The position numbers and the translations under genes were made by a program. A stretch of 49,352 bases of DNA from an uncultured Gemmiger sp. (GTDB lineage Bacteria; Bacillota; Clostridia; Oscillospirales; Ruminococcaceae): NCBI GenBank assembly GCA_947631565.1, contig CANRLV010000011.1, forward strand, positions 1 through 49,352, written 5' to 3'. Position 1 is the stretch's first letter. The number at the start of each line of letters is the position of its first letter. Positions 23,805 through 49,352 of the stretch are shown piece after piece. The notes under the pieces were generated by a model. That model was not told where the DNA came from. It made no database searches and saw nothing but the letters and a program-made list of their open reading frames with translations.

Positions 23805-23833
23805 TTGCTTTTCATTTAGGTGCGTTGTATAAT
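23805..23833 (+). promoter_or_regulatory. Promoter of the restriction-modification operon
   Basis: TTGCTT (23805-23810), a 17-nt spacer, and TATAAT (23828-23833), about 55 nt before the ATG. Confidence 0.8.
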
Positions 23834-23893
23834 GTTTTTGGCAGAGAAAACGATTTGCCCGTCAATTCGACATTTGGACAAGGAGCGCCAAAA

Positions 23894-26263
23894 ATGAGCA
23901 AAGCAAGTGAAGAAACAACAAAAGGGTTAACCGCAGATGTTTTAAGAGATATTATAGATTATCCAGCAAAACAGAACAAAAAAGTTGATGGGATTACATG
24001 GTTTAAAGAAGATAGCTACAAGGGTACAGATTACGACTGGCTTTCTGCTGCTTTTGAAAAAGCAAGTAAGACGCAAAGCATGGAAAAAAAGGGTACTCCC
24101 GATTTTATTGTTACTAAAGATAATTCCAATATTATTGTCGTTATTGAATGTAAAGCCAAAACTTCTGACCACAGCAAGTATTCGGATTTGGATGATTACA
24201 AGGTTAATGGATTTGGCACATCGAACGACACGGCAAAATATGCAATAAACGGTGCTTTATGGTATGCTTCATTTTTGTCCTATAAATACGACGTTATTGC
24301 CATTGCTGTTTCGGGTCAAACTTTGTTGGAAAACCGAATAACATCGTTTGTTTGGCCAAAAAATGGTAATGTTTCAGATATAGAATTATTGGCTGATGGT
24401 TTATTACAAAATGAGATGCAATCAATCAATAAGTACGAAAAAGAGATCGAGGTCGTTTTAGAAAGATTTGCCGCCACGGAAGCAGAGGTCAAGAAAGAAT
24501 TAAGAAGATATACGCTTTCCTGTGCTAATTTCCTGAGAGCGAACGGCATTGAAGATGACTCAAAAGCGGGTTTTGTTTCGGCCATCATTTTGGGTTTGAC
24601 CAACTCCGAATCAAAATTATATAAAGATACAAAATCGGCTATTGAAACAAAAAGATTCACAAAATCCAAGAAAATCCTATCCGATCAAATTGGGAAAAAT
24701 TCTGTAAAAATGCTAAAAGCCGCCCTATACGGAGACGGCGATGAACTTGAAGATGATTACATAAGAGGTATTTGGGATATAGACAATATACCAAAAGGTA
24801 AAAGAACAGCACTAAAAAAATTCTACAACAATCTTTTGGCAAAAGATGAATTGCTGCGTGCTCCAAAAGGTGAAAACAGGGATTTTTTAGATGGCGATAC
24901 CGTATTATCCCGCTGCATATATTCTCTTTATGAAAATGTTATTGAAGTGCTCGACCATTATAAAGGCATAGATATAATGGGTGAGTTTTATACGACCTTT
25001 CTTCGCTTTACCAAAGGGAACGCAAAAGAAAAAGGTATCGTGTTGACTCCAAAGCATATTACGGAGTTGTTTTGTGATATTGCTGAATATTATTCAGATG
25101 AAAAAATGACAGAAAAAACAAAAATAATTGATATTTGCTGTGGCACAGGAGCTTTCTTGATATCTTCACTTGCAAGGATAAAAGAAAATATTTGGAATGA
25201 AAAAATAAGTGAGTCAAAGAAAAAAGAAAAATACAGCGATGCGCAAGCCAACAGTCTTATCGGTGTGGAAAGAAATCCGTCCATGTATGCTTTGGCTTAT
25301 GCTAATATGCGGTTTCACGGTGACGGCAAGTCGAATTTGTTTAACTGTTCTTCGTTGCTGATCGATTCTTATGCCCCGGTTGACGATAGCGGTAAAACAT
25401 ATCTGAACGATAATGTGAAAATACCACTTCACGAAGCGTTGGCAAGCTTTGGAGATATAGATATAGCTATGATCAACCCGCCGTATTCACTTGACAAAAA
25501 AGAGAATTCATCCTCACAGAATTATAATATCATTTCAAGAAAAGAGGAATGCGAAGGTAAGATTAAAGTCTTAAAGAAAAAACTCTTCCAAGCAAAAAAG
25601 GCTAAAGAAGAATCCGAAATAAAAAAGATTCAAAATGAAATAGAAGAGCAAGACGATTTGATAGAAAAAATAAATAAAGAACTTGAAGATACTCGAATGG
25701 ATGAAGTAGTATTTTCAAAAGGTCAAGATGAATTAGACTTTGTGGCCTCCATGCTGCATTATTTGAAAGTTGGCGGAATAGGCATCGCCATCGTTCCTAT
25801 GTCCTGCGCAAGCAATAGCGGGAAAACACTTAGAACAGAATTATTACAGCACCATACCCTGTTAGCTTGTATGACAATGCCAACCCAATTGTTTTTTGAC
25901 AGCAGAGTTGGTATTCCTACTTGTATCATGGTATTTAAGGCTCATATCAAGCACGATAAAAACAAGGCCGTTTTCTTTGCGAGATGGAAAGATGATGGAT
26001 TTAAGGTCATTCCACACAATGGGAGAAAAGACATTGGCGCGTGGTCCTCAATCAGAACGGAATGGATCGAACAAATAGATGGTACTGCTGAAGCAAATCC
26101 GTATGTTTGGTTAAAGAAAAAAATATCGCCTGCGGATGAAGCATTATCAGAAGCGTATATCGAGACGGATTATACCCAGTTGATGGATGATGATTTTGAA
26201 AGAACTCTTAAAAAATACGCTCTGTTCAAATATATGGAGGATCATGGGATTTTGGAGGAATAA
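23894..26263 (+). CDS. Fused restriction endonuclease-N6-adenine methyltransferase (BcgI-like A subunit)
   Basis: A 789-residue protein. The N-terminal PD-(D/E)xK nuclease signature is GTPDFIV (Asp70) and VIECKAK (Glu85, Lys87). A helical linker follows. The N6-adenine methylase has motif I DICCGTGAF (from Asp413) and motif IV NPPY (528-531). A Lys/Glu-rich coiled coil (about 545-600) is inserted after NPPY, and the target-recognition side lies at the C-terminus. The architecture matches type IIG/IIB enzymes of the BcgI class, where cleavage and methylation share one chain and specificity is in a partner subunit. The ATG follows AAGGAG. Base and codon usage is AT-rich (AAA, GAT, ATT), unlike all neighbours: acquired by transfer. 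Confidence 0.85.
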   Translation: MSKASEETTKGLTADVLRDIIDYPAKQNKKVDGITWFKEDSYKGTDYDWLSAAFEKASKTQSMEKKGTPDFIVTKDNSNIIVVIECKAKTSDHSKYSDLDDYKVNGFGTSNDTAKYAINGALWYASFLSYKYDVIAIAVSGQTLLENRITSFVWPKNGNVSDIELLADGLLQNEMQSINKYEKEIEVVLERFAATEAEVKKELRRYTLSCANFLRANGIEDDSKAGFVSAIILGLTNSESKLYKDTKSAIETKRFTKSKKILSDQIGKNSVKMLKAALYGDGDELEDDYIRGIWDIDNIPKGKRTALKKFYNNLLAKDELLRAPKGENRDFLDGDTVLSRCIYSLYENVIEVLDHYKGIDIMGEFYTTFLRFTKGNAKEKGIVLTPKHITELFCDIAEYYSDEKMTEKTKIIDICCGTGAFLISSLARIKENIWNEKISESKKKEKYSDAQANSLIGVERNPSMYALAYANMRFHGDGKSNLFNCSSLLIDSYAPVDDSGKTYLNDNVKIPLHEALASFGDIDIAMINPPYSLDKKENSSSQNYNIISRKEECEGKIKVLKKKLFQAKKAKEESEIKKIQNEIEEQDDLIEKINKELEDTRMDEVVFSKGQDELDFVASMLHYLKVGGIGIAIVPMSCASNSGKTLRTELLQHHTLLACMTMPTQLFFDSRVGIPTCIMVFKAHIKHDKNKAVFFARWKDDGFKVIPHNGRKDIGAWSSIRTEWIEQIDGTAEANPYVWLKKKISPADEALSEAYIETDYTQLMDDDFERTLKKYALFKYMEDHGILEE

Positions 26264-26267
26264 AAAA

Positions 26268-27371
26268 ATGCTGAAAGGTGTTCAATGGTGCAAATATCAC
26301 TTATATGATTTGTTCTATATTTATTCGGGAAATAAATTCGATAAAAGCAAAATGACAACCTTTGATCCAGCGGTCGATTTTGTGGGCAGGTCAAGTAAAA
26401 ACAATGGTGTTACTGCCTATGTTGATTATGTTGAAGGTGTAAAGCCCTATCCTGCCGGTTGTATGACGATCGCATTAGGCGGCGAATATATAGGTTCTTG
26501 TTTTATTCAGCAACACTCGTTTTATACAAGCCAAAATGTTTTTGTACTATCGGAAAAAGAACCTATGGATGATCGTGTCAAGCTGTTTATCGCTCATTTA
26601 ATAAGGTTTGAAAGCAAACATAATTATATGGCTTTTGCCCGAGAATTAAATTCGCATATAAGAACGGATTTTACAATCAAACTGCCAAGTGTTAAAGAAG
26701 GTGTTTTAGATATTGATTTCATAAAACAATATGTTGATGGCTTCAAGATCGATATCAACTCCATTCCGGATAGCTTTTTAAATGAGGGATATAATAGAGC
26801 CTGTTGGTATATAGATAATATCGATAAGGATCTATTTGATAATGTATATTCAAAATGCAAAGAAAAGAAGCCTGTATCATTACAAGGCAAAAAGTGGGCC
26901 TGTTTTTCTTTGGAAAAAGATTTGGGTATGAAAATTTACAATGGAAAATCCTACAATGCATCTGATTTGGTTGAAGCAGTTGACGAGAATTATGTTTTGT
27001 ATATCACCAGAAAAGATGAACAAAACGGGATTTCAATGTATGTACAACCGCTGGAATACGATGGTTTGGAAAAGGCGAATGCAATTACAATAGGCGATAC
27101 TACAGCAACTATTTTTTATCAAGATCGCAAGTTTATAACAGGACCCCACATGATCGTTTTAAGGGCAGATTGGTTAAATGTATTTACAGCTGAGTTTATT
27201 ATTACTTTGTTGAACAAAGAAAAATACAGATATCCTGTTTTTGGCAGAGCTTTTACAAAAGATCTCATTAAACAAACCAAATTGTACTTGCCAATGGATC
27301 ATAACGGCAACCCTGATTATCAATTTATGGAGGATTATATCAGATCCTTACCGTTCAGTGCAAAGATATAA
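26268..27371 (+). CDS. Restriction-modification specificity subunit (HsdS/BcgI B-like)
   Basis: A 367-residue protein, 4 nt after the fused nuclease-methylase gene with GGAGG upstream. It is read as two similar target-recognition halves. The first is about 1-180 (VQWCKYHLYDLFYIYSGNKFDKSKM...YIGSCFIQQHSFYTSQNVFVL). The second is about 200-367 (KWACFSLEKDLGMKIYNGKSYNASDL...GRAFTKDLIKQTKLYLP). Each half has the pattern of an S-subunit TRD followed by a short helix. It would bind the bipartite recognition site and assemble with the A subunit. It is AT-rich like its partner. The recognition sequence cannot be predicted. Confidence 0.78.
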   Translation: MLKGVQWCKYHLYDLFYIYSGNKFDKSKMTTFDPAVDFVGRSSKNNGVTAYVDYVEGVKPYPAGCMTIALGGEYIGSCFIQQHSFYTSQNVFVLSEKEPMDDRVKLFIAHLIRFESKHNYMAFARELNSHIRTDFTIKLPSVKEGVLDIDFIKQYVDGFKIDINSIPDSFLNEGYNRACWYIDNIDKDLFDNVYSKCKEKKPVSLQGKKWACFSLEKDLGMKIYNGKSYNASDLVEAVDENYVLYITRKDEQNGISMYVQPLEYDGLEKANAITIGDTTATIFYQDRKFITGPHMIVLRADWLNVFTAEFIITLLNKEKYRYPVFGRAFTKDLIKQTKLYLPMDHNGNPDYQFMEDYIRSLPFSAKI

Positions 27372-40396: not shown

Positions 40397-42370
40397 TTAC
40401 GCGGCGGGCGTCGGCGTCGGCTCAACGGGTTCTGCCGGGGCGTCCCCCTCGGGCAGGGCCGGGCCGGGGCCGGTCATCATGTCGCTGTAGGCGGGTCGCT
40501 CCGGCTCGGTGGAGGGCGGCGCGGGCTCCGCCTCGGCGGTGCGCTCCAGCGTGGCGCCGGTCAGGATGCTGCCGGCGGCGCCGGCGTCATAGCCGATGCG
40601 CACCGTGTCGCCGACGTTGAGGATGACGGCCAGCGGGTTTTCGGCGGCGTTGACGGTGACGAAAGCGTCCTGCCCGTCCAGCCGCAGGAAGTAGTAGCTG
40701 TCGCCGTCCAGCACGGCGGTGCGGATCTCGGCGATGACGCCCTCCAGCGTGTCGCGCTCGGGCTCGGCGACCTCGGTCTGGTCGTCGCGGATGAGGCCGT
40801 TGTTGGCCAGCGCGCGGCGGTAGTTGGTCTCGCACTCGGCCACGGTGCCGCCGGTGGAAACGATGGAATACTGCTGCACGTTGACCATCGCGTACATCTT
40901 GACAAGGCCGTCCTCGCCTTTAAGGGCCATAAAATAGGTCGGCTGGTCGGCGATGTTCAGCAGCAGCGGGAAGGTTGCCGCGTAGCGCATCTGCTGCACC
41001 TGGCTCTGGGCCGAGGCCTGGGCCGAGGTCTCGGTAGCGCCGGCGATGGAGTAGAAGTGCGTCTCCTTGGTGCGCTGGTTGGAGAGGATGAAGCCGATGT
41101 TGGACTGGTCGGAAGTCACCGAGGTGACGCCGGTATACATATACACGTCGTCGTCGATGGCGATATAGTTGTAGCCCTCGCTGGTCAGCGTGACGTCGCG
41201 CTGACCGAACAGGCTGTTCAAAAAGCCGTTGTGGTAGAGCCCGTAGTAGTCATACTGCTGCATGATGAGGTCGGCCGAATACACGCGGTCGACCCAACTG
41301 GGGACCTCCTCATAGTACTCGCTCTCGCCGGTGATGGCGTTGACCAGCACCGCGCCCTGCACGTCGACGCCGCCGAACAGCCCGATGGTGCGCACCAGGC
41401 GCGAGCACACCCACCACGGCGTGCCGTCGTCGTCGATCTCGAACACGGGCTCGTCAAACATCATGGTCGGATAGGCAAAGCGCAGATGGCGGTACAGGTT
41501 GCGGCCGAAATGCTCGGCCGGTGTGTATTTGATGCCCTGCGGGTCGTCGCCGCGGTCGAGGCGCACGACCTCGGCCTCCTGCGTGACCATGTCGACGACG
41601 ATGTAGGCGGGCAGACCGCCGGCGCGGTTGGTGAACCACTTGATGATGTCGCCGTACATCAGCGAGGTGACGCGCACGGGGCGGCCTCCGACGTTGATCT
41701 GGGAGTAGCCGGGGATGATCTCGAACTGGCTGACCATGTCGCTGAGCTCGCCCAGCTTGCGGCTGCCCAGCCGCGCGGCGGAGTCAGCGTCCAGCATGGG
41801 GATCTGGTCGTAGGAGATCTCCTCGATGTCCTCGGCGAAGTCGCCGGTCTCAATGGTCAGCAGCTTGGCGTAGGCTCCGGCGCGCAGCACCACCCAGCTG
41901 GACAGCGAGCCGAACAGATAGCACGCCACCAGCAGCACCGCCACCCCGAAGGGGAGCAGGCACTGCTTGCGCAGAAAGCCGAAATACCCGCGCCAGCCGG
42001 TGCCCTGAAAGCCCGATGTCAGGATGGCGCAGCCGCAGTAGACGGCGCACAGCGCGAAGGCGAAGAGGTAAAAGCCCTCGTCGTGCAGGTTGATGGCCGG
42101 CAGCTCGAGATAGAACCACACGAGCGCCACCGCCAGCGTGACGCCCAGGTTGATGAGCGTGCGCGTGAAGCCGTTGCCGATGGGCTTTCGCGGCGGCCGC
42201 GGCGGGCGCGGCCCCCCGCCAAAGCCCCCGAAGCCGGGGCCCTCGGCGCCGTCGGGCGCGCCTTGAGCGCCGCCGTTCATGCCCTGAAAGGCGCGGTTGA
42301 TATCGTCAAAATTGATGCCAGCCCCCTGCGGCCGGGGCTGTACGGCGTTGGCTGTGTTTTGTGCTGACAC
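40397..42370 (-). CDS. Membrane protein of unknown function (657 aa)
   Basis: A Gly/Pro-rich cytoplasmic N-terminus (about 1-60; GFGGGPRPPRPPRKP) is followed by three or four membrane helices (about 65-160: FTRTLINLGVTLAVALVWFY, YLFAFALCAVYCGCAIL, LLPFGVAVLLVACYLFGSL). A large presumably external domain of about 450 residues comes next, then a C-terminal Pro/Glu/Thr tail (VEPTPTPAA). I do not recognise the family. The external part has repeated DxxTxE-like strands (VVDMVTQEAEVVRL; INAITGESEYYEEV), resembling PepSY-like domains, weakly. It starts at GTG 42370 with AAGGAGG 9 nt upstream. It is single-gene with its own promoter and terminator. Confidence 0.78.
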   Translation of the reverse strand: MSAQNTANAVQPRPQGAGINFDDINRAFQGMNGGAQGAPDGAEGPGFGGFGGGPRPPRPPRKPIGNGFTRTLINLGVTLAVALVWFYLELPAINLHDEGFYLFAFALCAVYCGCAILTSGFQGTGWRGYFGFLRKQCLLPFGVAVLLVACYLFGSLSSWVVLRAGAYAKLLTIETGDFAEDIEEISYDQIPMLDADSAARLGSRKLGELSDMVSQFEIIPGYSQINVGGRPVRVTSLMYGDIIKWFTNRAGGLPAYIVVDMVTQEAEVVRLDRGDDPQGIKYTPAEHFGRNLYRHLRFAYPTMMFDEPVFEIDDDGTPWWVCSRLVRTIGLFGGVDVQGAVLVNAITGESEYYEEVPSWVDRVYSADLIMQQYDYYGLYHNGFLNSLFGQRDVTLTSEGYNYIAIDDDVYMYTGVTSVTSDQSNIGFILSNQRTKETHFYSIAGATETSAQASAQSQVQQMRYAATFPLLLNIADQPTYFMALKGEDGLVKMYAMVNVQQYSIVSTGGTVAECETNYRRALANNGLIRDDQTEVAEPERDTLEGVIAEIRTAVLDGDSYYFLRLDGQDAFVTVNAAENPLAVILNVGDTVRIGYDAGAAGSILTGATLERTAEAEPAPPSTEPERPAYSDMMTGPGPALPEGDAPAEPVEPTPTPAA

Positions 42371-42417
42371 GGTAGGTCCCCTCCTTGCCCGTTCCCTGGC
42401 GGGAACGCTTACTAAGC

Positions 42418-42446
42418 AGTATAGCACAAATCAACGCCCGAAACAA
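42418..42446 (-). promoter_or_regulatory. Promoter of the 657-aa protein gene
   Basis: TTGTTT (42446-42441), a 17-nt spacer, and TATACT (42423-42418), divergent from the CRISPR array. Confidence 0.82.
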
Positions 42447-42489
42447 CACAATATAAAGGATTGTCCGGGTATGGTAAAACGGCGCGCAT

Positions 42490-42500
42490 TGTGCTATAAT
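42490..42500 (+). promoter_or_regulatory. Extended -10 promoter upstream of the CRISPR array
   Basis: TTGTGC-TATAAT with TATAAT at 42495-42500; the -35 is poor. About 40-70 nt before the first degenerate repeat. ACGGTCA (42531-42537) and TGACCGT (42554-42560) form an inverted repeat next to it. Confidence 0.55.
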
Positions 42501-42541
42501 GATAAAATCCATTGGGCCGCAGGTACGTTGACGGTCATGGA

Positions 42542-44295
42542 GTTGCCGTTTCCTGACCGTTGGTGGGTATGGTATAACGGCCGGGGTCCAGATGCCGCCG
42601 CTGAAGAAGGTGTAGTTCCCCGGCAGTTCCTGGTATGGCATAACAAAGGGCCTACAGGCCATCGTCCTGTTGAAGTTGTAGCTCCCCGGCAGTTCTTGGT
42701 ATGGTATAACGCCCGGCCTTCGCGGTGCAACGCAAAACGGGTTGTAGCTCCCCGGCAGTTCTTGGTATGGTATAACGGTGCCGTAAACGGTGACGATGCT
42801 CGGCTGGTTGTAGCTCCCCGGCAGTTCTTGGTATGGTATAACCGAGGTCGAGGCGGCAACGTCGCACCGATTGTTGTAGCTCCCCGGCAGTTCTTGGTAT
42901 GGTATAACGACTGGTACGACTTCAATATCGCACCAAACGTTGTAGCTCCCCGGCAGTTCTTGGTATGGTATAACTGATGGACTACCCATGTGACACCTGC
43001 CCAGGGTTGTAGCTCCCCGGCAGTTCTTGGTATGGTATAACGTCGCCTATCGTCATAACCCTGGCCGCGTCGTTGTAGCTCCCCGGCAGTTCTTGGTATG
43101 GTATAACGCCGAGGAGCTGACCGAGATTGCAGCAGCGGTTGTAGCTCCCCGGCAGTTCTTGGTATGGTATAACCGACCACGGCGCGAGCAGTTCCCAGTG
43201 GAGGTTGTAGCTCCCCGGCAGTTCTTGGTATGGTATAACTCGAGTTCGCGCCTTTGCGCTCATAGAACAGTTGTAGCTCCCCGGCAGTTCTTGGTATGGT
43301 ATAACGTCGCCTATCGTCATAACCCTGGCCGCGTCGTTGTAGCTCCCCGGCAGTTCTTGGTATGGTATAACGGAGAATGTGTCTTTGACATCAAACCGAA
43401 AGTTGTAGCTCCCCGGCAGTTCTTGGTATGGTATAACCAAAGAGGGCTGCCGCGCCGTCGATCTTGAGTTGTAGCTCCCCGGCAGTTCTTGGTATGGTAT
43501 AACCAAGGCTCAAATCGAATGTTATCGTCACTTGTTGTAGCTCCCCGGCAGTTCTTGGTATGGTATAACATGGGACGGCCTCGATGGTACTGTCACCGGG
43601 TTGTAGCTCCCCGGCAGTTCTTGGTATGGTATAACTGTGTGGGACGAGGACGCGCCAGAGGATGCGTTGTAGCTCCCCGGCAGTTCTTGGTATGGTATAA
43701 CCCCACCACTACCCATCCGCGAGGTGCAGACGTTGTAGCTCCCCGGCAGTTCTTGGTATGGTATAACGCTCAAAGACATTGGTATCGACTATGCCAGGTT
43801 GTAGCTCCCCGGCAGTTCTTGGTATGGTATAACAGCTTCAAGGCGCTGATGGCCGACGGGCAAGTTGTAGCTCCCCGGCAGTTCTTGGTATGGTATAACA
43901 ACCGATCCGGCGCAGCCTTTCCGCATCTAGTTGTAGCTCCCCGGCAGTTCTTGGTATGGTATAACCCTGTTCCGGGTCGCCCGATGCAATCGTAAGTTGT
44001 AGCTCCCCGGCAGTTCTTGGTATGGTATAACGGGCGGTATGACTGGAACGATGGAAAGGCCGTTGTAGCTCCCCGGCAGTTCTTGGTATGGTATAACCCA
44101 GCTTTCGCGCGTAGTTCTCCACGGCGTGTTGTAGCTCCCCGGCAGTTCTTGGTATGGTATAACTTGGAAAACGTCACCTCTTTCGATATTACAGTTGTAG
44201 CTCCCCGGCAGTTCTTGGTATGGTATAACATGGACCGCTGCATCGAAACGCTGCTGCCCGTTGTAGCTCCCCGGCAGTTCTTGGTATGGTATAAC
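42542..44295 (+). CRISPR. Type II-C CRISPR array, 27 repeats and 26 spacers
   Basis: The 36-nt repeat begins GTTGTAGCTCCC and ends GGTATGGTATAAC. There are 25 identical copies from 42675 to 44295. One copy at 42609-42644 has four mismatches. The leftmost copy (42542-42578) keeps only its 3' part. Spacers are 30 nt, with one of 31 nt (42975-43005). Two spacers (43042-43071 and 43306-43335) are identical. The 5' part of the repeat is the same as in Neisseria type II-C repeats. The orientation is set by that match and by the tracrRNA anti-repeat: transcription is rightward, converging on the cas operon. The 66-nt period keeps all frames open, producing spurious ORFs. Confidence 0.97.
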
Positions 44296-44305
44296 AGGCT
44301 GCTGC

Positions 44306-44340
44306 AAAAGGCGCCTCCGTACGCAGCGGAGGCGCCTTTT
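44306..44340. terminator. Bidirectional terminator between array and cas2
   Basis: A 14-bp perfect stem AAAAGGCGCCTCCG (44306-44319) with CGGAGGCGCCTTTT (44327-44340), with T runs on both strands. It ends both the rightward crRNA transcript and the leftward cas operon. Confidence 0.9.
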
Positions 44341-44353
44341 GCGTTGTAAAAAA

Positions 44354-44674
44354 TCAAATCGTTGTCAGTTGTTCGCAGGCAAATGCGGTGTCGTCCGGCG
44401 TCAGCTCGCCCAGCAAGATCTCGATGGATTCGTACTGTTTTTCGGTCACCACCAGCAGGCGCACCGCACCGGCGGCGGGCAGATGGGCATACAGCCGCGC
44501 GCGGTGCTTTTGCACCGCGTCCTGCCCGTTGCACACCCGCGCATAAACAGAAAACTGTACCATATGGTACCCGTCCTTGCGCAAAAAATTGCGGAACGCC
44601 GTTGCCGCGCGCCGCTGCGGCTTGGTCTGCACCGGCAAATCGAACAAAACGATCATGCGCATAAATCTACTCAT
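44354..44674 (-). CDS. cas2: CRISPR-associated endoribonuclease Cas2
   Basis: A 106-residue Cas2, structural partner of Cas1 in spacer integration. The ferredoxin-fold start is MRMIVLFDLPVQTKPQRR with the conserved Asp, then FLRKDGYHMVQFSVYARVC and ARLYAHLPAAGAVRLLVVTEKQYE. It overlaps cas1 by 8 nt; ATGs at 44674, 44662 and 44656 are possible, and the first is given by analogy to type II Cas2 with MSRFMRM. A longer open frame to 44806 runs inside cas1 and is rejected. Confidence 0.92.
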   Translation of the reverse strand: MSRFMRMIVLFDLPVQTKPQRRAATAFRNFLRKDGYHMVQFSVYARVCNGQDAVQKHRARLYAHLPAAGAVRLLVVTEKQYESIEILLGELTPDDTAFACEQLTTI

Positions 44675-45566
44675 AGCTGTGCTGCTGCAACGGCAGCAGC
44701 TTGGGCAGCAGCAGCGGGGCGTCTTCCCGCGTTTGGCGGCGCAGGCCCTGCACCTGCCGCTCCATCGCATAGGCAACGCTGTGCCGCTGCCCGCCGGAAA
44801 GTACATCCGCGTTGAGCAGATTGAACAGCCGTCCTTTCAGGCGGGTGTCCAGCTCGCTGGCAGCATCGACCTGCTCCGCCACGAACAGGTCCACGACCGG
44901 GCGATAAGGCTCCATCATGTCATCGGCCAGGTTGAAGGCATTCAGACCGCTGGCATGGTGCAGGCCCAGCCAGGGCAGAAAGCCGTATACCGCTACGGCG
45001 CGGGCCATACAGCCACGCAGGATGGCGTAGCCGTAGTTGAGCGCCGCGTTGCGGGTATCGGCTTCATCGCCGCGGGTGAACCCTGCCCCGAACAGGGCGG
45101 GGAAATAGTACGCCGCCGCGGCCGCTTCAACGTTCTCCTTGTCGCCGCTGTGCACGGCCTTGGCGCGGCTGAACAGCCACGCCGCCTGCACCTGCCTGCC
45201 GCACAGGGCCAGACATTCGGCCTGGTTCTGGATCTTGGCGGTCACGATGTGCTGCCAGGCCCGCTTGCGGACCGGCAGCGGCAGGGCCAGCTGCGCCTGC
45301 GTGACTTCCAACTGGCGGCTGTGCTGCGCAAAGGGCAGCAGCAGCGCGCAGGGCAGATGCTTTTCGTCGCAGAAATAGACCGCCGTACCGTTTTGCGCCA
45401 ACGCCGCCAGGGCCGCCGCCGTCACTATGCTCTGGCGGCTTTCGATGAGGACGGCGCTCAGGTCCTCAATGGGAAAGGTCTGTTCCTCCTGCGCGCGCAC
45501 CACCAGCTGCCCCAGGCGGCAGCTGACGCGGGCCGGGTTTGCTACCAGCAGGCTGCGGTAGGCCAT
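44667..45566 (-). CDS. cas1: CRISPR-associated integrase Cas1 (type II)
   Basis: A 299-residue Cas1, the metal-dependent integrase of spacer acquisition. The N-terminal beta domain is YRSLLVANPARVSCRLGQLVV, LSAVLIESRQSIVTAAAL and VYFCDEKHLP. The catalytic helical domain has RNAALNYGYAILRG (Glu/Asn region), LPWLGLHHASGLNAFNLADDMMEPYRPVVD with the His and Asp ligands. ATG 45566 follows AAAGGGGGG and is 14 nt after the cas9 stop. Length is normal for type II (about 290-300). Confidence 0.95.
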   Translation of the reverse strand: MAYRSLLVANPARVSCRLGQLVVRAQEEQTFPIEDLSAVLIESRQSIVTAAALAALAQNGTAVYFCDEKHLPCALLLPFAQHSRQLEVTQAQLALPLPVRKRAWQHIVTAKIQNQAECLALCGRQVQAAWLFSRAKAVHSGDKENVEAAAAAYYFPALFGAGFTRGDEADTRNAALNYGYAILRGCMARAVAVYGFLPWLGLHHASGLNAFNLADDMMEPYRPVVDLFVAEQVDAASELDTRLKGRLFNLLNADVLSGGQRHSVAYAMERQVQGLRRQTREDAPLLLPKLLPLQQHSYE

Positions 45567-45580
45567 GCGACCACCCCCCT

Positions 45581-48500
45581 TTAGCGGAAGCGCTGCCGGG
45601 TCTCTTTTTTGACCTCGCTGAGGTTGCCCAGCACATCGACCTGGTATTTTTTCAAACTGGCAAGCGTTTTTACGCCCAGACTGTTGATGCGGTATGCCCG
45701 TTCGTGCGTTTCGACGGTGATCGTTCCCCCTGCTATCCCCGCACTGACAAAATAGACCAGTGCCCGGCGGGCGGTGTACTCCTTTTCCAGCGTGCTGTCG
45801 GCATTGACCCGGGTGAATTTCAGCCCCCGCTTGTGTTCCACCATGAGCAGATCGTTCGGATACAGAGAGAAGAGGAAATCCTCCTCCCGCATCGGCTTCC
45901 ACTCTGCATAGGGCTTGAACGCCACCACCGCCCGATCCGGCAGCTGCGGCTTGCGGGTATCGGCCACATAGACTGGCACCCAGTAGTACCCGTCGCCCGG
46001 CACCAAAAACACGTCGATGCGCACCATGCCGCCGGTCTGGTTCCTGGCTACGCCTCTGCCCCCATGCACGGGCACGGTAAGGGTGGCCGGTTCCACGATT
46101 TTCACCTTGCGCACCAGGGGGCCGGGCGTACCGTCCGCCCGGGGCTTGTAAAACGGCTCGGCAAAAGCCTTTTTGGCGTTGCCGCCATACGCCTGCAGGC
46201 GGTCGCACAGCGCCTTGTACAGCAGGCGGTCACTGTCGGGCTTGTAGTAGTTTTCCATCTTTTTCGGCGTAAGGTCGGTAAGTGCCACCTTGCTGACCAC
46301 CAAGCCCTCGCCGCCTTTGGGGCTGCGAACGGTAGCCTCGTGCGCTTCCCCGGTCACCTTGTACCGCGGCATACGGCTGACGAACACCGGCCGGATGCTG
46401 TCCACGGGGAAATTTTCATAGAACATCGGGTTGAGCTGCAGCAGGTTTTCCTGCGGGCAGGCGCTCAGGCGGGTAAGCAGCTCGTCGCGGAAATGCGGCC
46501 ACGGCGCCGGGAAATGCTCCCTGGTGCGGCTGTGCACCGAGCCGCTGCCGTCCGCCGCCTGCCTATAGGCGCCCTCGATGCGCCCGTACCAGCGTGAGAT
46601 CTGCTGCACCATGCCCTGGGTGGCGCAGGCGATGACCACGGCGTCCAGCGCGTGGTGGGTGTCGCCGTCGGCGCGCACCTTGGTAAGCCCCCAGCGCTTG
46701 CGCAGGTGGGCCGTGATGCCGCCCGCAAGCGCTGCCACCCGCTGTTTGCCGGCCGCCGGGTGCGGCTCGAACGCCAGGTGGTCACGGATGAAATTGAGCA
46801 AAAAGCGGGCCATATACTGTGTGTCCTGCAAGTTGCGCTGGCGGAAGCCCTCGGCCTCCTCCCCGCCCCAGCTCTGCCGCAGCAGGTTCTGGCGCTTGCG
46901 GCTGCTGCGCACCCGGGCTTTCGTCCAGGCGATGAAGCGCTCCCGCTTTTCCCCCTGCAGATACTGCAGCGGCAAACGGTTGCCCTTCTGGCGGTTTTCC
47001 GAGGCCAGCACCAGCACCTTGTTGGCGCGGGTATCGTCAAAGCTGAGGCTGTAGGGCACGATGTGGTCCACCTCGGCGTAGCCGGGCTCAAACAGGCGGT
47101 CGGCCGCCAGCGGCTGCAGGCTGTAGGCGCACACGCCGTCCTGCTCCTTCCACAGGCGGAATTTGACCAGGTCCTGCCCGGTGGGCTGCAGCAGGCCGTA
47201 GGTCTCGCGCAGCTCCGCCATCAGGCGCTCGTTTTGGCGGGCGTTGTCCTCTTGCTCGCGAGTCATCTTCTGCCGCTCGGCAAAATCGCGGCTGAGCTCA
47301 CGCGCCAGCTCGATGTGGCAAAAGACCGGGCTGTGCCCCTGCTCGCGGATGATGGCGTTGACCACCTTGACCGTTTGGGCTACGGCGCGGCGCACCACCG
47401 GGCTGGTGATGTCCTCCATCTCGGGCACGGCGGCCGGCAAAAGGGTCTGCTTTTCCCCGCCCGCATGGGCGCGGAAATCGTACCCGGCGGCGGCACAGGC
47501 CTTGTCATAGGTCATTCCCTGCTCCAAAAACGGGAGGATGCTGCGGCAGGCTTTGACCGAAAGGTGCCCCGTTTTGGCAAAGCGCAGCCCCAGCAGCGCC
47601 TCGGCCTGCGCGGCCGAAAGGCCCAGCGCGGTGAGCTTTTTGCGCCGGGTATCCTCATTGCGGTGCAAAAACAGCACCTGGGCGATATCGTCCTGCTGCT
47701 GTACGGTCAGCTCTGCCAATGCCGCCGCGCCCAGCGCCTTGCGCAGGGCATGGTAGCCCTTGAGCGGCGGCAGCCTGTGCTTTTTCTCGCATTCGGCGGC
47801 GGTCTTGTCGGGCTGGTAGCGCACCTCGGTATACTGCGTGCCGTCCGGCCAGCCAAAGGCCTTGCGCAGGCGGGCATAGTCGACGTTTTCGCTTTTGTAC
47901 GCCAGTTCGACCGCGGCGGCGCGCTCGGCATCCGTCAACGGGCGGGTCATGCCGTCCTCCGCCGCGCGGATGTGGTTGAGCTTTTGCAGCAGGGCAAAGC
48001 GCTCAAAGCTGGCACTGTTTTTGGGCGCACGTTTTTCGCCCGGCTCCAGCGTGCAGGAGCCTGCCTCCCAGCCGCCGTGGTAGGGGCTGTTGCCGCCGGG
48101 ACCCTCGTCAAAGGTGCGCTGGCGGCGCAGGATCGAAAGGTACTCGGCCTCAAATTCCGGCGTGGCCCACGCCTGGCCAAATCGCCGCTGGGCGGCGAAC
48201 AGCTGGCAGGCCTCGTCCAGCACGGCCTCGCGGCTGACCGTGGCCAGGTAGTTTTCGGCCTTGTTGCGCTTGTGGTCGGCAAACAGCGGGTCCCTGGCAT
48301 ACATCTCGCCGGGGGTGCGCCAGCCGTGCTCGGCCATGCGCGCGGCGTTGGCCTGCATGGCCCCCAGCAGCTTGCCGTCCTCGGCCTCCGTCTCGCTCAG
48401 GCGGTTGCTTTTAAAGCCGCGCCGCTGGGCCAGATGCAAAAGGATGCGGGCAAAGGCCTCCGGCGGCACCGGCCCGTCCAGGGCGCGGGCGCGCAGCGCG

Positions 48501-48811
48501 TAGATATCCTCCAGATGGCCGGCCGCGAACAGCGCCGCCATCTGTGCCCGGTCCGGCAGGCCGTACTGCGGCAGCAGGCGGTAGATGTCCGCCTTGCGCA
48601 GCGCTTTGCGGCGCAGGCGGCGGCGCAGACTGCGCGCCGTGCGCCGCGGCGCGGCCAGGCTTTCCCCGCTTTGGGGGTGCTCCGCCGCCGGAAAGATGCG
48701 GCTGCCCAGCCGGATGATGCCGCAGGGCTGGGCGTTTTCGTCCAGCGCCAGCACCGCCCAGCCGACCGAGGCGACGCCGATGTCCAGCCCGATCCCATAA
48801 GGCCATTGCAT
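45581..48811 (-). CDS. cas9: Cas9 endonuclease, compact type II-C
   Basis: A 1076-residue RNA-guided nuclease. RuvC-I is GIGLDIGVASVGWAV (Asp10), the Arg-rich bridge helix is RRTARSLRRRLRRKALRKAD (about 55-75), RuvC-II is FCHIELAREL (Glu501), HNH is EVDHIVPYS...SENRQKGN (Asp582, His583, Asn606), and RuvC-III is GDTHHALDAVV (His720, Asp723). The C-terminal PAM-interacting part covers about 840-1076. Catalytic spacing is within a few residues of N. meningitidis Cas9 (1082 aa). ATG 48811 is preferred over GTG 48820, with AGCAGG upstream. No csn2 or cas4 is present, which defines type II-C. All catalytic residues are intact, so it should be active. PAM cannot be read here. Confidence 0.96.
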   Translation of the reverse strand: MQWPYGIGLDIGVASVGWAVLALDENAQPCGIIRLGSRIFPAAEHPQSGESLAAPRRTARSLRRRLRRKALRKADIYRLLPQYGLPDRAQMAALFAAGHLEDIYALRARALDGPVPPEAFARILLHLAQRRGFKSNRLSETEAEDGKLLGAMQANAARMAEHGWRTPGEMYARDPLFADHKRNKAENYLATVSREAVLDEACQLFAAQRRFGQAWATPEFEAEYLSILRRQRTFDEGPGGNSPYHGGWEAGSCTLEPGEKRAPKNSASFERFALLQKLNHIRAAEDGMTRPLTDAERAAAVELAYKSENVDYARLRKAFGWPDGTQYTEVRYQPDKTAAECEKKHRLPPLKGYHALRKALGAAALAELTVQQQDDIAQVLFLHRNEDTRRKKLTALGLSAAQAEALLGLRFAKTGHLSVKACRSILPFLEQGMTYDKACAAAGYDFRAHAGGEKQTLLPAAVPEMEDITSPVVRRAVAQTVKVVNAIIREQGHSPVFCHIELARELSRDFAERQKMTREQEDNARQNERLMAELRETYGLLQPTGQDLVKFRLWKEQDGVCAYSLQPLAADRLFEPGYAEVDHIVPYSLSFDDTRANKVLVLASENRQKGNRLPLQYLQGEKRERFIAWTKARVRSSRKRQNLLRQSWGGEEAEGFRQRNLQDTQYMARFLLNFIRDHLAFEPHPAAGKQRVAALAGGITAHLRKRWGLTKVRADGDTHHALDAVVIACATQGMVQQISRWYGRIEGAYRQAADGSGSVHSRTREHFPAPWPHFRDELLTRLSACPQENLLQLNPMFYENFPVDSIRPVFVSRMPRYKVTGEAHEATVRSPKGGEGLVVSKVALTDLTPKKMENYYKPDSDRLLYKALCDRLQAYGGNAKKAFAEPFYKPRADGTPGPLVRKVKIVEPATLTVPVHGGRGVARNQTGGMVRIDVFLVPGDGYYWVPVYVADTRKPQLPDRAVVAFKPYAEWKPMREEDFLFSLYPNDLLMVEHKRGLKFTRVNADSTLEKEYTARRALVYFVSAGIAGGTITVETHERAYRINSLGVKTLASLKKYQVDVLGNLSEVKKETRQRFR

Positions 48812-48845
48812 ACAAAACACCTGCTTTCGTTTATGTCCCCTATAT

Positions 48846-48943
48846 ATAAAGGATGACGCCCCGCAAAGCGCGGGGCGTCAGAGCCTTACGGTGTACTACC
48901 TTATTGTAGCAACCATAGCAGTTCTTGGTATGGTATAAGAACT
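48846..48943 (-). ncRNA. tracrRNA
   Basis: A minus-strand RNA of about 98 nt. The anti-repeat (48938-48904) pairs with the CRISPR repeat: 21 bp continuous with repeat positions 15-35 and 7 bp with positions 2-8, separated by a bulge. After it comes GTTGCTACAATAAGG, identical to the Neisseria tracrRNA at this point, then a GGCTCTG linker. A terminator hairpin (48879-48855, GACGCCCCGC/GCGGGGCGTC) is followed by ATCCTTTATAT. It lies directly upstream of cas9 on the same strand. Confidence 0.92.
48855..48879 (-). terminator. Terminator hairpin of the tracrRNA
   Basis: GACGCCCCGC and GCGGGGCGTC, 10-bp arms with a 5-nt loop, then ATCCTTTATATA. The weak U run may allow read-through into cas9; I see no strong separate cas9 promoter. 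Confidence 0.8.
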
Positions 48944-48949
48944 GCATCC

Positions 48950-48978
48950 ACTATACCATACGGCCGCGCATTTGTAAA
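48950..48978 (-). promoter_or_regulatory. Promoter of the tracrRNA
   Basis: TTTACA (48978-48973), a 17-nt spacer, and TATAGT (48955-48950). The predicted start at about 48943 falls at the edge of the anti-repeat. The -10 block GTATGGTATA (48961-48952) is identical to the 3' part of the CRISPR repeat. Confidence 0.88.
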
Positions 48979-49001
48979 GTATTTTTTGCCAGAAAGCCGC
49001 C

Positions 49002-49184
49002 CTACACGAACGGCAGCAGCAGCACCCGGCCCGCCAAAATCAGCACCAGCACCACGCCCAGGCAGCCGCCGTTGCCGCCGCTGCCCTTGCCGCCGCCACC
49101 GCCGCCGTGCGCGGCGTTGAACGTCTGCATATAGTGCGCATAGCCGCTGGAGCCCTTGCCGAAATACCCGTAATCCCCTGCCAT
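49002..49184 (-). CDS. Small Gly-rich membrane protein of unknown function (60 aa)
   Basis: ATG 49184 has GGGAGG about 9 nt upstream. The N-terminus is MAGDYGYFGKGSSGYAHYMQ, a Gly-rich stretch follows (HGGGGGGKGSGGNGG), and one hydrophobic segment ends the protein (CLGVVLVLILAGRVLLLPFV). The combination of a strong ribosome site, an extended -10 promoter and sensible topology supports a real gene. It is just upstream of the tracrRNA promoter on the same strand. No family is recognised and a link to CRISPR is not shown. Confidence 0.65.
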   Translation of the reverse strand: MAGDYGYFGKGSSGYAHYMQTFNAAHGGGGGGKGSGGNGGCLGVVLVLILAGRVLLLPFV

Positions 49185-49215
49185 AAAAAGCCCTCCCTGC
49201 CTTTTGACTGATGCC

Positions 49216-49225
49216 ATTATACCAC
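49216..49225 (-). promoter_or_regulatory. Extended -10 promoter of the 60-aa gene
   Basis: TGTGG-TATAAT with TATAAT at 49221-49216; the -35 is poor. From here to the window end (49352) I see no gene, only two TTGCAAT direct repeats near 49320-49350. Confidence 0.55.
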
Positions 49226-49352
49226 AACAAAAGTCCCATAGTCCGTATTTTCAAAACGCCGCGCCGATTTTTATGGCCCGTTAAATGACAAAGTAAACGC
49301 AAAAAGCCCCCCCTGAAAAATTGCAAGTACCCTGACAAACATTGCAATTACA

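Follow-up and report, generated by a model that had tools for sequence, protein, structure and literature searches.

A complete type II-C CRISPR-Cas9 locus in a Gemmiger draft genome, with complementary stretches at its tracrRNA start and 3' leader

Organization and assignment of the locus

The window examined here is a 49,352-nt stretch of an uncultured Gemmiger draft genome (2.47 Mb, 89.2% complete, 5.05% contamination). A CRISPR locus occupies the final 7 kb of the 49 kb contig; its three cas genes (cas9, cas1, cas2) lie on the minus strand, and its plus-strand array converges on cas2. The locus is real and complete, with the following parts:

45581..48811, minus strand: cas9, 1076 aa from the ATG at 48811; TIGR01865, 739 bits (cut-off 100)
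44667..45569, minus strand: cas1; TIGR03639 (type II), 283.6 bits
44354..44668, minus strand: cas2; TIGR01573, 72.9 bits, and Cas2_II, 138.7 bits
42543..42578, plus strand: decayed first repeat that retains its promoter half and has lost its handle half
42579..42608, plus strand: spacer 1, which precedes the 26-repeat array
42609..44295, plus strand: CRISPR array with 26 copies of a 36-nt repeat; 25 are identical and the one at 42609 has 4 mismatches
44230..44259, plus strand: spacer 26, nearest cas2
44260..44295, plus strand: last repeat, with the extended -10 GGTATGGTATAAC within bases 24-36
44304..44344, plus strand: terminator-like hairpin between array and cas2, from the RNA fold
48854..48943, minus strand: tracrRNA, from the predicted start A48943 to the terminator
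48950..48978, minus strand: predicted tracrRNA promoter, TTTACA-17-TATAGT with TG before the -10

An earlier note on this DNA had described a complete, compact II-C locus, and both the family scores and the relatives in family and genus genomes support that description. By family score, the identities of Cas9, Cas1 and Cas2 are certain, and a promoter/terminator scan and RNA fold support the tracrRNA that the note had listed beside them. The count of 27 repeats and 26 spacers given there holds if the decayed repeat is included; 25 of the spacers are distinct. The suggestion that all parts look functional has intact reading frames, a promoter and a terminator as its whole basis. A self-matching spacer, an identical spacer pair and two self-pairing stretches, described below, go beyond that account.

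By the tests made on the sequence, the system is assigned to type II-C. The Cas9 reading frame is intact from the ATG, with only the terminal stop, and Pfam places HNH_4 and RuvC_III domains in the protein, as expected of a type II-C nuclease. The motifs GLDIG, IELARELS, EVDHIVPYS and HHALDA, which we take to have catalytic roles in Cas9, line up with solved Cas9 chains. The type II cas1 and cas2 are present without csn2 or cas4, and the 42.5 to 48.8 kb interval is too full for a further gene; the contig ends ~0.4 kb beyond the tracrRNA promoter, a distance past which further upstream genes are possible. Neither csn2 nor cas4 was found in the 10 flanking frames scanned in three relatives (L052, L053 and L091). 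A tracrRNA with an anti-repeat and a terminator is predicted by sequence, fold and pattern scan. Rfam gave three matches over 42000-49352, all below their gathering scores and none to a tracrRNA or CRISPR family. The hairpin at 44304..44344 was seen in the fold and was absent from the pattern-scan output.

Among neighboring genes, a 676-aa protein beside the array (40397-42427, minus strand) had no NCBIfam, PADLOC or Pfam match at the cut-offs used. A Type IIG-like restriction-methylase (23825-26263; PADLOC 190.5 bits, N6_Mtase) adjoins a Methylase_S specificity protein (26187-27371), both on the plus strand.

The locus had been called Neisseria-like, a label that proved loose. Against solved structures, the Cas9 scored 859 bits with 21dz and 813 bits with 9ar4 (which we take to be GeoCas9), followed by 597 bits with 6jdq (presumably NmeCas9). 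Provided that these names are right, NmeCas9 is thus not the closest relative, and by score the 9ar4 group is closer to the protein than the 6jdq group is. The stretches GTTGCTACAATAAGG in the tracrRNA and GTTGTAGCTCCC in the repeat, cited as shared with Neisseria, are both present; that Neisseria has them is our assumption. Compared on gene set and layout, the window shares with GeoCas9-like and NmeCas9-like II-C systems its genes, Cas9 size, domain order, putative promoters within repeats, a tracrRNA upstream of cas9 and an array converging on cas2; the self-pairing tracrRNA start and the complementary 3' leader may be differences. Close Cas9 relatives (at least 44% identity, over nearly the whole protein) occur in 9 of 396 family genomes and 6 of 35 genus genomes, its own included in each count. 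Relatives of the locus include gut MAGs and, among named organisms, Subdoligranulum variabile, a record of which carries an array and a Cas9 63% identical to the window's; it is these relatives that point to a gut Firmicute as the probable host.

By sequence, every repeat has an extended -10 in its 3' half, a putative promoter, and the guide handle would lie in its 5' half; the first repeat reads as promoter only. The decay of this first copy is one-sided (13 mismatches within bases 1-18, 3 within bases 19-36), while the second repeat has 2 and 2. The same one-sidedness appears in the first repeats of L052, L053 and L054 (13, 7 and 6 mismatches against 0) and in that of L033 (12 against 3), the last being spaced 97 bases from the next copy rather than 66; it was not seen in the first copies of L060, L091, L056, L058 and L031. 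Promoters inside repeats, spacer entry at the last repeat – here the cas2 end – and mutated first repeats are already published II-C biology, as described in the passages available from PMC12080349 and PMC13187072; the promoter role given to GGTATGGTATAAC follows the former.

Two spacers, at 43042-43071 and 43306-43335, are identical, as are their flanking repeats, perhaps through duplication, double acquisition or an assembly effect. Separately, in the related genome G417, a 39-base stretch at C1:262649-262687 (loci L089 and L092) is 95% like repeat plus flank and lies on another contig than that genome's array; it may be a lone repeat or a second array.

Spacer matches and candidate PAM

Matching spacers to protospacers, which the earlier note had proposed as a route to the PAM, gave a thin return for the window itself, with matches for three of its 25 distinct spacers. 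Spacer 26 matches another contig of the same draft at 30 of 30 bases (C16:19782-19812, flank GCCG-GTGA); the gene hit there encodes a family 2 glycosyltransferase. A viral contig is matched by spacer 20 at 27/30 (flank GGGA-ACTT), and spacer 1 matches a genus genome, G401, at 25/30 (flank CGGC-GTGA). The last match may be chance, since the two proteins encoded there have no Pfam match.

Searched whole, the array matched no phage even at E 10. The joined distinct spacers returned 57 phage records (E 0.8 to 9 among the 30 listed), which we read as chance – an odd result beside the whole array's zero. The one conspicuous match among plasmids was to an array of Subdoligranulum variabile; with the self-matching spacer omitted, the 24 distinct spacers returned 14 plasmid records (best E 0.06). 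Viral contigs were scanned with pieces of seven spacers (seven scans) and with the repeat (one scan), giving a match in one of the eight. In genus genomes, the 24 spacers had a match at E 0.2 in 26 of 35, a count that takes in the window's own array and rests on scoring up to 15 candidates in each genome, and among the matches listed only that of spacer 1 in G401 fell within 5 mismatches. Besides the own genome, 20 of the 396 family genomes had a match, with two candidates scored per genome and judged by query spans.

A relative, G397, was more informative. Its Cas9 is 67% identical to the window's (71% over residues 901-1000, 55% over 1001-1076), and all six of its protospacers (0 to 4 mismatches) carry N4-RYAA: GTAA, GTAA, GTAA, ATAA, ACAA and GCAA after four free bases. 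Three of these lie on one contig of G403 that encodes portal, head and tape-measure proteins, and one lies on G397's own genome. We therefore read the PAM of G397 as a candidate N4-RYAA, a motif picked after the flanks had been seen. At positions 5-8, the corresponding flanks in the window are GTGA (self), ACTT (27/30) and GTGA (25/30), and those of other relatives are GCGA, TTTA and GTAA (G389) and CCAC (G417). Of these 13 flanks together, every one has a pyrimidine at position 6, 11 have a purine at position 5, 11 have A at position 8 and 8 have A at position 7. The list covers matches closer than those with 6 or 7 mismatches, which were set aside (L053 spacer 1, window spacer 14 twice and window spacer 1 in L173). 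Among the literature matches listed, as far as their available text goes, neither N4RYAA nor NNNNRYAA occurs. If N4-RYAA holds in vitro, it would be a further target rule for a compact Cas9.

The perfect self match raises the prospect that the system is impaired or switched off. The target site is found in 26 of 35 genus genomes (own included) at 87-100% identity and so belongs to the conserved chromosome; a working Cas9 would have one of its own genes as a target. We consider an impaired system improbable, given intact frames and motifs and a self flank, GTGA, that differs from the relative's RYAA, so that the site may lack a PAM. The contig could also be foreign, because about 5% of the draft is contamination, and this too counts against impairment.

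Complementarity at the tracrRNA start and in the 3' leader

Two further features of this locus are less usual:

48918..48945, minus strand: self-pairing stretch at the tracrRNA start, GCAGTTCTT / loop ATACCATACC / AAGAACTGC
44296..44309, plus strand: beginning of the 3' leader, with complementarity to the last repeat in two possible registers

The tracrRNA promoter (10 of 12 consensus positions plus TG; 48978 is the first base of the -35 box) predicts a start near A48943. As DNA, the first arm GCAGTTCTT is identical to repeat bases 15-23, and repeat bases 24-33, within the promoter half, have their complement in the 10-nt loop ATACCATACC. In the predicted fold, AGUUCUU pairs with AAGAACU, followed by a hairpin between the lower anti-repeat and the nexus region and then by the terminator. 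The whole RNA folds at -43.5 kcal/mol (z -6.3), and the 5' hairpin appears in both the minimum and the centroid structure. The repeat:tracrRNA duplex, at -78.9 kcal/mol, is 28.6 better than its parts at -50.3; the hairpin could therefore only delay pairing. As a side observation, the opposite strand of the anti-repeat bears the repeat's extended -10 (GGTATGGTATAAG; 48927-48940, plus strand), and a promoter pointing away from the tracrRNA is therefore possible.

Across 25 loci, the mean score of arm with anti-repeat was 13.74 for matched pairs; swapping between loci lowered it to 10.13 (0 of 5000 as high) and shuffling to 8.70 (0 of 500). No swap reached the matched value among 19 less redundant loci (0/5000), and 82 of 5000 did so for nine loci fetched after the idea had been written down; a nine-locus divergent subset (2/5000) was chosen for having the hairpin and is not independent. 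Arms vary between loci yet stay matched, as in TAGTCCT/AGGACTA (L033), TTGTTCTT/AAGAACAA (L093) and CCCTT/AAGGG (L096). At least 7 contiguous pairs lie near the loop in 10 loci, 5-6 pairs lie within two bases of it in four, two have 4 pairs, and pairings in the other 9 of 25 are only short or misplaced.

The 25 were drawn from 34 loci. Omitted were L037, L039, L100 and L106 (upstream side missing), L105 (not split), L034 and L059 (near-copies of L035 and L058), and L097 and L098, which, unlike most relatives, show no tracrRNA in the 300 bases upstream of cas9. The boundaries of all arms, loops, repeats and leaders were set by hand; MAFFT was rejected for the pair counts, as it did not keep the tracrRNA arms in register.

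The leader comparison covered 26 of the 29 loci with arrays, leaving out L101 (repeat end unclear) and L039 and L100 (repeat and leader the same as in L037); the array of L032 runs in the opposite direction and was read by hand. Leaders scored a mean of 15.46 against their own repeats, compared with 12.08 for swaps (sd 0.42, 0/5000), 11.21 for shuffles (sd 0.42, 0/1000) and 10.72 for 164 spacer starts. The result held when leader length was varied from 10 to 16 and when the set was cut to 20 loci, each standing for a close group. In the 10 loci where the leader was read only once the idea existed, 2 of 5000 swaps matched it. Runs of 7 or more contiguous pairs, counting G-U, occur in 17 of 26 loci. 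Three phylum loci, fetched last, show neither convincing tracrRNA arm pairing nor leader pairing; adding them to the leader set gave 14.83 against 11.80 (0/5000). Both complementary stretches are thus above chance in this set of loci, by sequence comparison, and are found in many relatives without being universal.

The window's own leader pairing is middling: either TTGTAGC with GCTGCAA, or the GGCAG region with the leader, the latter register coming from a fold that included spacer and terminator. Two side observations concern relatives. About 20 bases past the last repeat of L214, beyond the 14 leader bases tested, GGGACTGTAA could by eye pair, with a bulge, with the repeat's TTACAGTTCCC. 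The leaders of L097 and L098 have the longest gap-free Watson-Crick pairings except for L031 and L103/L104.

Possible roles of the two stretches

We give about even odds to a joint explanation: a complete II-C locus with a tracrRNA hairpin that shields and delays, and a leader that acts as RNA or DNA. The promoters in the repeats would drive array transcription, new spacers would enter at the cas2 end, and Cas9 would be guided by crRNA base-paired with a tracrRNA that is itself transcribed from a separate promoter upstream of cas9. At its start this tracrRNA would form a hairpin, with part of the repeat copied in the 5' arm and the repeat's promoter half complemented by the loop. The hairpin may shield the 5' end of free tracrRNA, and crRNA pairing may be delayed until an incoming repeat, seeding on the loop, has displaced the arm. 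A precedent is the long tracrRNA of S. pyogenes (tracr-L), whose 5' part pairs with its own anti-repeat; the window's tracrRNA, in contrast, has no guide-like stretch in front, and its arm sits at the predicted start.

In Firmicutes, 5' stem-loops protect RNA from 5'-to-3' decay, and in an otherwise plain II-C system the hairpin might do this without delaying crRNA pairing. In hairpin-bearing loci the first base of the arm lies, by eye, 4-8 bases beyond the -10, at or near the expected start, as such protection would predict. A stem that only stabilizes could do without an arm identical to the repeat; still, pairing with the anti-repeat in itself requires likeness to the repeat. We regard protection alone as possible but on the unlikely side.

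For the leader, two roles seem about equally likely: a hairpin in RNA, at the 3' terminus of array transcripts, or a signal in DNA that serves the entry of spacers. Support for pairing is comparative rather than energetic, because repeat and leader folded alone were no stabler than shuffles (z 0.7 in the window, -0.8 in L053, -1.2 in L097). This weak stability fits an inverted repeat that Cas1-Cas2 or another protein recognizes in the DNA, a reading to which we give slightly less than an even chance. So do the non-Watson-Crick pairs, which lack the strand bias that would favor RNA (G-T against A-C, 12 to 9 in the leader set and 3 to 5 in the tracrRNA arms), and the position of the leader stretch, which touches the last repeat, where II-C spacers enter according to the available passages of PMC12080349. 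Against a protein site, the paired stretch shifts along the repeat between loci, beginning anywhere from base 2 to base 20, which would be unusual.

The leader also invites comparison with the leader-repeat hairpins of II-A systems (Liao et al. 2022, as cited in the available parts of PMC12080349 and PMC13187072). There, as in type VI, the leader adjoining the acquisition repeat is complementary to that repeat. The II-A leader lies upstream and pairs with an extraneous first repeat, whereas the window's stretch lies downstream, next to the last repeat, and that repeat provides the newest spacer's handle; it is not a II-A style hairpin. In the literature searched, as far as its available text goes, neither a repeat-copying tracrRNA arm nor downstream leader pairing is described for II-C.

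A bolder extension, which we consider rather unlikely, joins the two stretches in one circuit of mimicry. The tracrRNA copies the repeat and the leader resembles the anti-repeat; both RNAs would stay folded until they met by way of the loop, and the newest repeat would become a distinct substrate through the leader hairpin, tuning the loading of the newest spacer into Cas9. Such a circuit would be the II-C counterpart of II-A leader control.

Pairing of the 3' leader would extend the leader-repeat story to II-C arrays, for which the accessible parts of the II-C study deal with the upstream side alone. If the tracrRNA hairpin forms in cells, the tracrRNA itself would hold back crRNA pairing in this Cas9 clade, and guide designs that trim the 5' end would lose that control.
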